A stretch of 64,000 bases of DNA. It comes from a bacterium (GTDB taxonomy: Bacteria > RBG-13-66-14). A program made the translations under genes and the position numbers. The DNA is taken from positions 22,231 to 86,230 of the forward strand of contig DATKYS010000118.1 of assembly GCA_035528375.1 (NCBI GenBank), written 5' to 3'. Position 1 is the first letter of the stretch; every line of letters begins with the position of its first letter. Below, piece after piece: positions 31,692 to 34,966 of the stretch. Below the pieces are notes generated by a model, which saw nothing but the letters and a program-made list of their open reading frames with translations, was not told the origin of the DNA and ran no database searches.

Positions 31692-32141
31692 TCAGTGCTT
31701 GATGTCCAGCATCTCGACGACGGCATCGGCCCGCTTCACCAGTTCCACCGGCGCCCTGCGGCCGGTGAGGACCAGCTCCAAGGGGAATCCCACACGGAAC
31801 ACCGTCTCGACGTCCGCGAGGGGGATAAAACCGGCCTCCACCGCGTCCAGGAGCCCGTCCAGCACCAGCAGGTCATGGCCCCGGGCCTCGATTAGGTCGA
31901 GAGCCGTCCGCCAGCCCTTTTCCGCCGAGCTCCGCCCGCCCTCGCCGAGGTCGCAGGGAAAAACCTCGATTCCCAGCTTGACCGCCGACTCGGCCTCCCC
32001 GGACGTTTCCGGCCTCAGAAACCGCACCACCGCCACCCGTCCACCATTACCGCGCCGGCCCATCGCCAGGCCGAAAGCGGCGGCGCTGCCGGTCTCGACC
32101 TCGCCGGAATAGATCCTGACCCTGCGATCCGTATCAGCCAC
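31692..32141 (-). CDS. BtuR/CobO-like protein with a degenerate P-loop
   Basis: 149 residues from GTG at 32141 (AAGGAG 6 nt upstream). The fold matches ATP:corrinoid adenosyltransferases of the BtuR/CobA/CobO type. It has VRIYSG, GGRVAVVRFL, HDLLVLDGLLDAVEAGFIPL, ELVLTGRRAPVELVKRADAV and a final EMLDIKH. In true enzymes the segment after 'YSG' is a P-loop of GNGKGKTT type that binds ATP; here it reads EVETGSAAA, with both Lys and the Thr pair lost. It therefore probably cannot bind ATP the usual way and may have a regulatory or binding role. It is the last gene after the STAS-GAF-HD gene (30-nt gap). Confidence 0.8.
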   Translation of the reverse strand: MADTDRRVRIYSGEVETGSAAAFGLAMGRRGNGGRVAVVRFLRPETSGEAESAVKLGIEVFPCDLGEGGRSSAEKGWRTALDLIEARGHDLLVLDGLLDAVEAGFIPLADVETVFRVGFPLELVLTGRRAPVELVKRADAVVEMLDIKH

Positions 32142-32171
32142 TCCATGCTCCTTGAAGCGGGATAAATCCGG

Positions 32172-34217
32172 TCAGACCTCGTCGCCGTGCTTGGCGGTGA
32201 TCAGCCGGACGAAGAGGGACACCACCTTCGGGTCGTAGCGCGAGCCGGCCTCGGCCTCGAGCTCGGCCAGGGCCGACCGGGCGGTTTTGGGCTGCTGGTA
32301 CCGTCGTCCCGAGATCATCGCGTCGTAGGAGTCCGCGACCGCCACCAGGCGTGCGCCGACGTAAACCTCCTCGCCCGCGAGCCCCAGGGTGTAACCCTTC
32401 CCGTCCCAGCGCTCGTGATGCTGGCGGACGGTCTTGATGCACTCCTCGTCGAAACCGAGGAGCTTGAGGATGTCCGCGCCGACCTCGGGGTGCGCCTCCA
32501 CCTGTCTCTGCTCCTCCTCGGAGAGCTGCACCGTGTCCTGGATGGTGGCGTCGGCCAGGGTGGCTATCATGCCGACGTCGTGCAGAATGGCGCCGTAGAC
32601 GATCTGGTGGATCTCCTGCCGGGGAAGGTCCATCATCTGCGCGAGCTTGGCCACGTAACGGCTGACGCGCTCGGAGTGACCGCGGGTGTAGGGATCGCGG
32701 GAGTCTATGGCGGCGATGAGACGGCCGACGGTGTCGCGGTCGTGCTTGTGCAGGCGCTGGAACAGGCGGGCGTTCTCCAGGTGGACGGACACCTGCTTGG
32801 AGAGGCTCCAGATGAGGTGCAGATCCTCGGCGTCGTAATCCAGTTGCCCGACCTTGGGCCCCAGGGCCAGGATGCCGAGGAACTCGCGCGTAGAGACGAG
32901 CCCGCAGACCATCGTAAAACCCAGCTCGGTCAGCTTCTGCTTCAGGCTGCCCGAGCCGTCCTCGGTCAGGGCGTCCAGCGGCAACGGCTTCTTCGTCGTC
33001 AAGAGCTCACGGCGGACGTCCTCGGAGAGAACCTGGGAGTAGGTCAGGTCGAGCTCGTCGGTGATGCCCTTGGCGAGCTTGAGGTTCAGGTGGTCGCCCT
33101 CCATCAGGAAGACCGCCGTGCGGCTGACGCCGAGCTGGCCGATGACGATGACCAGGAAGGTGTTCAACAGCTCGTGAACGGCGAATTGGCCGCTGAAATC
33201 ACGGGCGGCCTGGAACATGGTCTTGAGCTCGAGGGTCTTGCGGGTGAGCTTTTTACCGGCAAGGGTCAGCTCCTCGTCCGCCTGCGTCAGCCGCTCCGAA
33301 GCAGCCGCCAGTTCACCGACTAAAGGCTCGACCGAGAGGTGGTAGAGGATGAACCAGTTGAGCTGGCGGCCCAGGAGGGCGAGGGCTTCGACCTCACCCT
33401 CGATGATGGGGCTGGGACCGAAACAGATGAACGCGTGGAGACCCTCGCCCGAGCGGATGCGGAGAATGCCCTGCGTGCCCGCCATCTGTAGCGTCTCAAG
33501 CTCCTCCGACGAGGGGAACGTACGGCGCCAGCGCGGGAAGAGGAGGAAGTCGCTCTTCGCGCCGCGCAGACGGTCCACGAAATCCCCGTCCACGGGCAGG
33601 CGAAAGCCCGGGCCGATGCCGATCCCCTGGCCCGCGACGACCAGGGGCGCGAAAAATCCGTCGCCCGTCTGGTTGAAGAGCGCCATCCACGGGATGCCGA
33701 AGACGTCAACGGCGGCGCTGAGGGCCAGCGCGATGGGCTGATCAGAGCTCCTGAGACGGACCAGGATGTCTGAAAACTCGAGCACGTCCTTGGGGGTGGC
33801 CAGGGAGCGAAGGGGGACCTCGATGGGGGACTCGGGCACCAGGACTTCGGACGTCGTGGGGGTCAGGTGGGAAAAATGGTCCAGGGCCTCGTCAACCGAG
33901 TCGTAAATTTTAAAGTAATCCAGAAGGTCCAGGGATTCCAGCACGCGACGGATGCGGGGGGGGATGAGCGCGAAAACGATGTCGCCGTCCGAGGCCCGGA
34001 CCTCCTTGGCCACGGAGATAAAGGCGCCCACGCCCGCGCTGGAGATGAACTCGAGCTTATCGAGGATGAAGACGGTGTTGTACACACCCTCGCCCAGGCA
34101 GACCTCGAAGAGTTTCTGGATGTCCGTCGAGCCCTCGATGCCGAGCATGCCGGAAATTTCGTAGACGCGGACGCCGTCCGGGGTGGTGCGGTTGAGGGTT
34201 ATGGAGAGCTCGTGCAT
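32172..34217 (-). CDS. STAS - GAF - HD-GYP-like signalling protein
   Basis: 681 residues. Residues 1-115 are a STAS (anti-sigma antagonist) domain with the conserved Ser59/Ser60 in EFISSAGVGAF, the phosphorylation site in SpoIIAA/RsbV relatives. Residues about 140-300 and 335-490 are GAF-like sensor regions joined by a helical segment (LTQADEELTLAGKKLTRKT). Residues 494-681 form an HD-GYP-like domain: HSERV, HDVG (His546, Asp547) and HHERWDGKGYT (GYT in place of GYP, 608-610). HD-GYP domains hydrolyse cyclic di-GMP. The RsbW-like kinase gene lies just upstream, suggesting partner switching that controls an HD-GYP output. Activity is inference. Confidence 0.87.
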   Translation of the reverse strand: MHELSITLNRTTPDGVRVYEISGMLGIEGSTDIQKLFEVCLGEGVYNTVFILDKLEFISSAGVGAFISVAKEVRASDGDIVFALIPPRIRRVLESLDLLDYFKIYDSVDEALDHFSHLTPTTSEVLVPESPIEVPLRSLATPKDVLEFSDILVRLRSSDQPIALALSAAVDVFGIPWMALFNQTGDGFFAPLVVAGQGIGIGPGFRLPVDGDFVDRLRGAKSDFLLFPRWRRTFPSSEELETLQMAGTQGILRIRSGEGLHAFICFGPSPIIEGEVEALALLGRQLNWFILYHLSVEPLVGELAAASERLTQADEELTLAGKKLTRKTLELKTMFQAARDFSGQFAVHELLNTFLVIVIGQLGVSRTAVFLMEGDHLNLKLAKGITDELDLTYSQVLSEDVRRELLTTKKPLPLDALTEDGSGSLKQKLTELGFTMVCGLVSTREFLGILALGPKVGQLDYDAEDLHLIWSLSKQVSVHLENARLFQRLHKHDRDTVGRLIAAIDSRDPYTRGHSERVSRYVAKLAQMMDLPRQEIHQIVYGAILHDVGMIATLADATIQDTVQLSEEEQRQVEAHPEVGADILKLLGFDEECIKTVRQHHERWDGKGYTLGLAGEEVYVGARLVAVADSYDAMISGRRYQQPKTARSALAELEAEAGSRYDPKVVSLFVRLITAKHGDEV

Positions 34218-34402
34218 GGCCGTGGGTGCCCCGGTTAATAGGAAACGAAATTACGTCCCCGGTAAAACGGACGTGGAGGGGTGGTTATCTTCTTTAATAG
34301 CCAATCACAAACCGTGCCAGCTCCGTAGAGGCGTGCCGAGGTGGTGAATCCACGAGCCGCCATCCGGATCGAAACCGCAAAACTACTGCGGGTCGGGGCT
34401 TT

Positions 34403-34885
34403 TCAAGGCGTAGGTCGCACCTTGAACCCCTTCTTCATCTCCAGAACGTTCAGGCCGTCCCGGTTGTAGAAGTTGACCTCGTCCATCAGGTTGTGGATCA
34501 TCCAGAGGCCCAGCCCTCCGTCGGCCCCCCTGTCAATGAGCTCCCACACGTCGGGCGAGGTGCGACCTCCGGTGCGACCTCCGGTGCGACCCACGTCGTC
34601 GGGAGGCCGGAAGGGGGGTCCCGAATCGTAGATGAAGATGATTGCCGCGGATTCCTGTATCTCCAGCTCCACCTTGATGTCGAGCTTCGGGGAGTCTTTG
34701 TAGGCGTGCTCGATGACGTTGGCGCAGCCCTCGTAAACCGCCAGGGTTATGTCGTCGCGCACGGTTCCCGGTACGCCGTGCAGGGAAGCCACCCGGTTGA
34801 CGAACCGCTTGATACCCGCCAGGGCCTCGAGGTCGGATTTCAACCGGATGCTGTACTTGTTGTGCTTCATCCTCGCCGGGTTCAC
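34403..34885 (-). CDS. RsbW-like anti-sigma factor / serine kinase (HATPase)
   Basis: 160 residues from GTG at 34885 (GGGGG about 9 nt upstream); an ATG at 34870 is an alternative. The fold is the HATPase_c kinase of SpoIIAB/RsbW. The N box is LAVYEGCANVIEHAYK (Glu and Asn that bind Mg-ATP), the G1 box IFIYDSGPPF and the G2 box DGGLGLWMIHNLMDEV. Between the G boxes lies a GRTGGRTGGRT insertion from a 12-bp DNA repeat. In known systems such proteins phosphorylate a STAS partner and hold a sigma factor. Here the STAS domain is on the downstream gene product. The promoter overlaps an operator-like dyad. Confidence 0.88.
   Translation of the reverse strand: MNPARMKHNKYSIRLKSDLEALAGIKRFVNRVASLHGVPGTVRDDITLAVYEGCANVIEHAYKDSPKLDIKVELEIQESAAIIFIYDSGPPFRPPDDVGRTGGRTGGRTSPDVWELIDRGADGGLGLWMIHNLMDEVNFYNRDGLNVLEMKKGFKVRPTP
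34560..34592. repeat. 12-bp in-frame tandem repeat in the RsbW-like gene
   Basis: GTGCGACCTCCG twice, then 9 bp of a third copy. It codes for the GRT/GG insertion next to the ATP-lid region. Confidence 0.85.
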
Positions 34886-34921
34886 GGGACCCCCGAAACC
34901 CGCGTTCGGAGGGTAATTACG

Positions 34922-34966
34922 GCCCTATCAGCAAGCAATGATAGGGCTTGGCGTAAAAAAAGTCAA
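34922..34966 (-). promoter_or_regulatory. Promoter of the RsbW-like operon overlapped by an inverted-repeat operator
   Basis: On the minus strand TTGACT (34961-34966), 17 nt, TATCAT (34938-34943). The arms GCCCTATCA (34922-34930) and TGATAGGGC (34939-34947) form a perfect 9-bp dyad with an 8-nt centre covering the -10 and the start point. This is the classic repressor position; as RNA the start lies inside, so a DNA operator is more likely than a hairpin. Confidence 0.65.

Follow-up and report, generated by a model that had tools for sequence, protein, structure and literature searches.

An RsbW-type kinase and a STAS-GAF-GAF-HD-GYP fusion protein form a conserved, candidate c-di-GMP-directed partner-switch module in Candidatus Coatesbacteria

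Partner switches are, to our knowledge, mostly known as controls of sigma factors, and the cases known to involve cyclic di-GMP (c-di-GMP) act on separate cyclases. Here we describe a locus from Candidatus Coatesbacteria, lying in a 64,000-nucleotide stretch of DNA that was analyzed as a whole (the window; GenBank assembly GCA_035528375.1, contig DATKYS010000118.1, positions 22,231 to 86,230), in which the gene for an RsbW-type kinase precedes one for a single protein combining a STAS, two GAF and an HD-GYP domain. The SiaABCD system of Pseudomonas aeruginosa resembles it in joining a membrane HAMP-PP2C phosphatase, a kinase, a phosphorylated substrate of the STAS fold and, as the target in place of a sigma factor, a c-di-GMP enzyme (PMC7647112, PMC8457831). 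However, the substrate there, SiaC, is a free-standing member of the DUF1987 family (Thr68), and the diguanylate cyclase that it activates, SiaD, is a second protein, whereas the predicted Coatesbacteria substrate is a true STAS domain (PF01740, Ser60) fused to a breakdown-type HD-GYP domain and two GAF domains. In the HsbR-HsbA-HsbD system of P. aeruginosa (PMC5085249) and, as cited in PMC8457831, in BgrUWV-BgrR of Sinorhizobium, the phosphorylation state of a STAS protein likewise controls a c-di-GMP enzyme, but there the STAS stands apart from the enzyme, which is a GGDEF cyclase. The RsbU-RsbW-RsbV and SpoIIE-SpoIIAB-SpoIIAA systems share with the locus the families and motifs of phosphatase, kinase and STAS protein, as well as the STAS fold and phosphosite; they differ in that the genome carrying the window has no SigB/F/G-type factor and its STAS domain is not stand-alone. 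On the output side, PmGH (4mcw; PMC4159591) and the REC-HD-GYP proteins share the GAF plus HD-GYP arrangement and common metal ligands, while the fusion differs from PmGH in a tyrosine of the Y/F type (Y510) at the position of E185, a methionine at that of K225 and a STAS domain in front. What sets the locus apart from SiaABCD and HsbA-HsbD would be a true STAS substrate in cis, partnered with HD-GYP rather than GGDEF.

The window genome (G000, contig C118 in our numbering) is a 2.63-Mb, 100%-complete assembly, and its closest named relative is Ca. Coatesbacteria RBG_13_66_14 (MFAF01000052), whose fusion protein is 92% identical. The order proposed by the first-pass annotation, made from the letters alone, is real: on the minus strand the kinase gene is followed after 185 bp by the fusion gene and then by a BtuR-like gene. 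The kinase, the fusion and its domains are located as follows (window coordinates).

34403..34885, minus strand: RsbW-type serine kinase (GHKL, HATPase_c_2), from Pfam, PDB match and invariant motifs
32172..34217, minus strand: STAS-GAF-GAF-HD-GYP fusion, 681 amino acids, from Pfam, an AlphaFold2 (AF2) model, PDB matches and presence in 13/14 phylum genomes
33870..34217, minus strand: STAS domain, residues 1-116, from alignment to SpoIIAA and model superposition
33339..33800, minus strand: first, divergent GAF-like domain, residues ~140-293, from Pfam hits in relatives and a separate AF2 model
32754..33182, minus strand: second GAF domain, residues 346-488, from Pfam GAF_3, also found in all 12 relatives
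32187..32738, minus strand: HD-GYP domain, residues 494-677, from alignment to PmGH 4mcw, conservation and a paralogue control

The kinase, whose true start is probably the ATG at 34870 (~155 amino acids), was called RsbW-like at the outset, and this assignment is well founded: it matches Pfam HATPase_c_2 at 4.6e-25, with NCBIfam in agreement, and its best sequence match in the PDB is RsbW (6m36, E 8.5e-24). Residues E52, N56, D87/G89/F92 and G124/G126 are invariant across 12 sequences, giving a GHKL serine kinase of the partner-switch kind with intact N, G1 and G2 boxes and the catalytic glutamate. It is the only stand-alone RsbW of the genome, the remaining matches lying within long frames at no more than 36 bits. 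Within the gene, at window 34559-34591, the 12-bp unit GGTGCGACCTCC is repeated perfectly in tandem (2.8 copies). This adds repeated Gly-Arg-Thr-Gly residues to the stretch that separates the G1 box from the G2 box, in the region of the ATP lid; the repeat is shorter or missing in close relatives.

The fusion protein scores 3.5e-14 against Pfam STAS, 1.3e-5 against GAF_3 and 4.2e-33 against HD_5, and NCBIfam agrees. Confidence in its full-length AF2 model is intermediate (mean pLDDT, the per-residue confidence score, 70.8; pTM, the predicted template-modelling score, 0.47), so that the domain folds are usable and the domain packing is not. Overlaying its predicted STAS domain on SpoIIAA, as found in complex with SpoIIAB (1thn_B), gives a Z-score of 18.4 and a root-mean-square deviation of 1.6 A over 113 residues. 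Profile alignment places Ser60 (codon 34038-34040) at the position of SpoIIAA Ser58, the established phosphosite, and Ser59 at that of Asp57. Both serines are invariant in all fusion sequences; of Ser59/60, which had been named together as phosphorylatable, Ser60 is the predicted phosphosite. The GAF-like sensors noted at first sight resolve into two domains. The first lies below Pfam detection in the window protein, matches GAF_2 or GAF_3 in 4-5 of 12 relatives and, modelled alone (AF2, mean pLDDT 65.5), matches GAF domains; the second is part of a GAF plus HD-GYP region that aligns with PmGH 4mcw at E 1.2e-61 (profile positions 327-666). The STAS, second GAF and HD-GYP domains have ratios of nonsynonymous to synonymous substitution (dN/dS) of 0.13-0.24 between G000 and its relative G009.

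The same alignment confirms the HD-GYP-like domain and allows its active site to be read residue by residue. All seven metal ligands of the Y/F subfamily are present (H514, H546, D547, H576, H600, H601 and D629). In PmGH numbering, D183 corresponds to D508, E185 to Y510 (as in the Y/F subfamily), H189 to H514, H221/D222 to H546/D547, K225 to M550, H250 to H576, H276/H277 to H600/H601, D305 to D629 and D308 to D632; the GYP motif reads GYT, and the D629 position is Asn in G001 and G002. Of the catalytic D183/K225 pair of c-di-GMP phosphodiesterases, therefore, the aspartate is kept and the lysine is not. In PmGH, K225A and D183A each abolish activity, while changes in the GYP motif matter little (PMC4159591). 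Among the fusions the K225 position holds Met in the window's family (G000, G009, G010, G012 and G013), Tyr in two families (G003-G007) and Arg in one (G002); the only fusion with Lys there, that of G001, has Asn and Ser in place of D305 and D308. The domain is under purifying selection within the window's genus (dN/dS 0.13-0.15). The suggestion that it is a possible c-di-GMP hydrolase is accordingly weakened by the change of the catalytic lysine to methionine, although the metal ligands are intact in the window's lineage, and the fused HD-GYP may have low enzymatic activity or serve as a receptor for c-di-GMP. GGDEF proteins occur in 14/14 genomes of the phylum and a PilZ protein in 11/14, making c-di-GMP plausible in these cells. 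One GGDEF protein of the window genome (L012:340-2499, minus strand) is fused to C-terminal NHL repeats, an unusual architecture for a diguanylate cyclase.

Searches of 14 Coatesbacteria genomes from five families recovered the fusion in 13; G008, whose assembly is 70% complete, is the one without it, and the G011 copy runs off a contig end. The RsbW gene is directly upstream of the fusion in 12 of these 13 genomes. The two genes are 180-283 bp apart in the window's genus; elsewhere their spacing ranges from an overlap of 4 bp to a gap of 20 bp. Kinase and fusion are thus a conserved module of the phylum. In G003 a 100-N gap interrupts the kinase gene, of which 145 bp occur a second time at 96.6% identity; this second copy borders a further 100-N gap and has SpoIIE as its neighbour (gaps L080:7570-7669 and L166:3872-3971), so the locus was probably one operon split by scaffolding. 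A tree bearing on the origin of the fusion (support 60/75, with a single origin in 62% of bootstrap trees) weakly favours a single origin. Some other families of the phylum hold further STAS proteins; among them, L165:1455-3176 and L167:1754-3289 (both plus strand) encode STAS-TPR proteins of 511-573 amino acids with, by eye, a metallo-beta-lactamase-like C-terminal region and small stand-alone STAS genes nearby.

The module has a third part that the first-pass annotation overlooked, a PP2C-type SpoIIE phosphatase. One clear SpoIIE is present per genome in 13 of the 14 (G010 is the exception; G002 has an additional weak match of 25 bits). It lies directly upstream of RsbW, heading a SpoIIE-RsbW-fusion operon, in G001, G002, G004, G005 and G007, and in G006 the SpoIIE contig ends inside the kinase start, placing the operon across a contig break. 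This linkage, seen in families f2, f3 and f5, suggests that SpoIIE-RsbW-fusion was probably the ancestral operon. In the window genome SpoIIE is unlinked (G000:C132:23225-24904, adjacent to an apparent trmFO gene); it has HAMP and SpoIIE domains and the motifs GGDYYD, ADVSGK, YTDG and DDMT, and a relative's SpoIIE protein carries an sCache sensor domain. The only STAS domain of the window genome is the one inside the fusion, so that the stand-alone STAS protein of sigma-B and sigma-F systems is absent, and with one STAS, one stand-alone RsbW and one SpoIIE each has a single visible partner. Its four sigma factors are RpoD, two group-2 RpoS/RpoD-like factors and one of the ECF (extracytoplasmic function) type. 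No SigB/F/G-type factor was found in this genome, where the group-2 factors score 94-113 bits with the corresponding model, whose cut-off is 234; the reported absence of a sigma-B type factor nearby therefore extends to the whole genome, and such a factor was rejected as the target. In the window genome, then, a single STAS substrate is visible for kinase and phosphatase, and a sigma factor of the canonical target type is lacking.

These features give roughly an even chance that the locus encodes a switch worked by serine phosphorylation and wired directly to an HD-GYP output of the c-di-GMP type. A fuller version is somewhat less likely than not: across the phylum, the STAS domain would be an in-cis serine-phosphorylation receiver through which an outside signal, passed on by a membrane phosphatase and RsbW, controls a lysine-replaced HD-GYP domain. 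Such a system would use the components of a partner switch to do what two-component signalling does in REC-HD-GYP proteins. What we infer here is that Ser60 is phosphorylated, which way the signal runs, which nucleotide is involved and what the output is. A membrane signal would alter the activity of the SpoIIE/PP2C phosphatase, which combines an extracytoplasmic region with HAMP and SpoIIE domains; RsbW would add a phosphate at Ser60 of the N-terminal STAS and SpoIIE would remove it. Unphosphorylated STAS would bind RsbW and phosphorylated STAS would be free, occupying the position of the receiver in REC-HD-GYP proteins. The state of the STAS, together with the two GAF domains and their ligands, would then set the action of HD-GYP on c-di-GMP, either slow hydrolysis or binding and signalling, and no sigma factor would be required. 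The original idea that phosphorylation switches second-messenger breakdown instead of a sigma factor thus retains its switch, which the dedicated pair, the conserved linkage, the invariant serine and the lack of a SigB-type factor make credible, and loses some of its hydrolase.

Several observations weigh against this proposal. Of 12 fusions, 11 have another residue in place of the K225-equivalent lysine, but each of the 17 HD-GYP domains examined outside the fusions in this phylum keeps it, which points to an active site altered specifically in the fused clade with the remaining metal ligands retained. In LOV-STAS and RsbR proteins the STAS is the output and not the input. The window genome has two RpoS-like sigma factors, and RpoS can be the target of a partner switch, as in CrsR-CrsA of Shewanella and HsbR-HsbA of P. 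aeruginosa (PMC6482189). The main rival, which we regard as unlikely, reverses the flow: GAF and HD-GYP would be the sensors, the latter as a c-di-GMP receptor, and unphosphorylated STAS would free a group-2 RpoS-like factor from RsbW. Beyond the two group-2 factors and the eroded lysine, it draws on sigma frames of similar size in most relatives and on DvhD, an HD-GYP protein that only binds c-di-GMP (PMC13090378). Yet DvhD has changed HD to SQ, whereas the fusions keep metal ligands that a pure receptor would not need; none of the four sigma factors adjoins the module, and none is of the SigB/F/G type. Moreover, input domains of c-di-GMP enzymes are usually N-terminal (PMC9239204), as is normal in known HD-GYP proteins, so the position of the STAS counts for it as input. 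A reversed flow that bypasses sigma factors altogether, in which GAF and HD-GYP ligands would regulate RsbW through the STAS and RsbW would act on another protein, is also compatible with the eroded active site, but the window genome has no second STAS substrate, and any additional target would need to be of a different type. Targets other than sigma factors are known for RsbW-type kinases, for example in SypE-SypA; we nevertheless consider this version quite improbable.

The gene downstream of the fusion and a sequence upstream of the kinase complete the locus.

31692..32141, minus strand: BtuR/CobA-like protein lacking the Walker A motif (Pfam CobA_CobO_BtuR, 1.1e-23)
34938..34966, minus strand: sequence fitting a sigma-70-like promoter, ahead of the kinase gene (by consensus alone)

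It would be attractive to see the BtuR-like, RsbW-like and fusion genes as one functional unit, for instance tying cobalamin to the switch, as their shared strand, tight spacing and linkage in the five genomes of the window's family might suggest. Gene order in relatives largely refutes this: the kinase-fusion pair of the proposed three-gene order recurs, but the BtuR-like gene follows the fusion only in the window's family and is missing from the locus in families f2-f5. Further, its Walker A motif, GDGKGKTT in G012 and G013, has become GEVETGSA in the window's genus, destroying the P-loop, and its dN/dS of 0.26-0.34 exceeds that of the fusion while still indicating some purifying selection. 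The protein is probably not an adenosyltransferase, and we rejected it as a core part of the module; a three-gene unit seems to us very improbable indeed. An RNA switch at the locus was likewise rejected, the sole Rfam match in the window being a tRNA.

To ask whether the fusion occurs outside the phylum, a STAS alignment was compared with 386 genomes at least 80% complete, ~375 of them extra-phylum, with matches listed to about E 4e-14. Among the matches listed, no extra-phylum STAS match in these ~375 genomes lies in an open frame of at least 600 amino acids, though rarer or more distant fusions are possible; the longer frames inspected are STAS-TPR, STAS-HATPase, STAS-HTH or spurious. Among the plasmid matches listed, only HD-GYP-region matches appear and none covers 80% of the fusion query. 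In passages from open-access papers that name both domains, no STAS-HD-GYP fusion is described. In other phyla, L160:1169-2224, L161:1194-2195 and L163:1102-2130 (all plus strand) encode proteins that, by eye, carry a STAS domain at the N terminus and an RsbW-like ATPase at the C terminus, joined by a Cys-rich linker resembling a zinc ribbon, so that kinase and possible substrate share one chain.

As kinase, phosphatase and substrate are each single in the window genome, the module offers a compact three-protein case for the direction and specificity of partner switching. It also raises a clean question, namely how an HD-GYP site behaves when its catalytic lysine is replaced and its metal ligands are kept. 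If the favoured reading, predicted from sequence, is true, an outside signal would be wired straight into second-messenger control in an uncultivated phylum.

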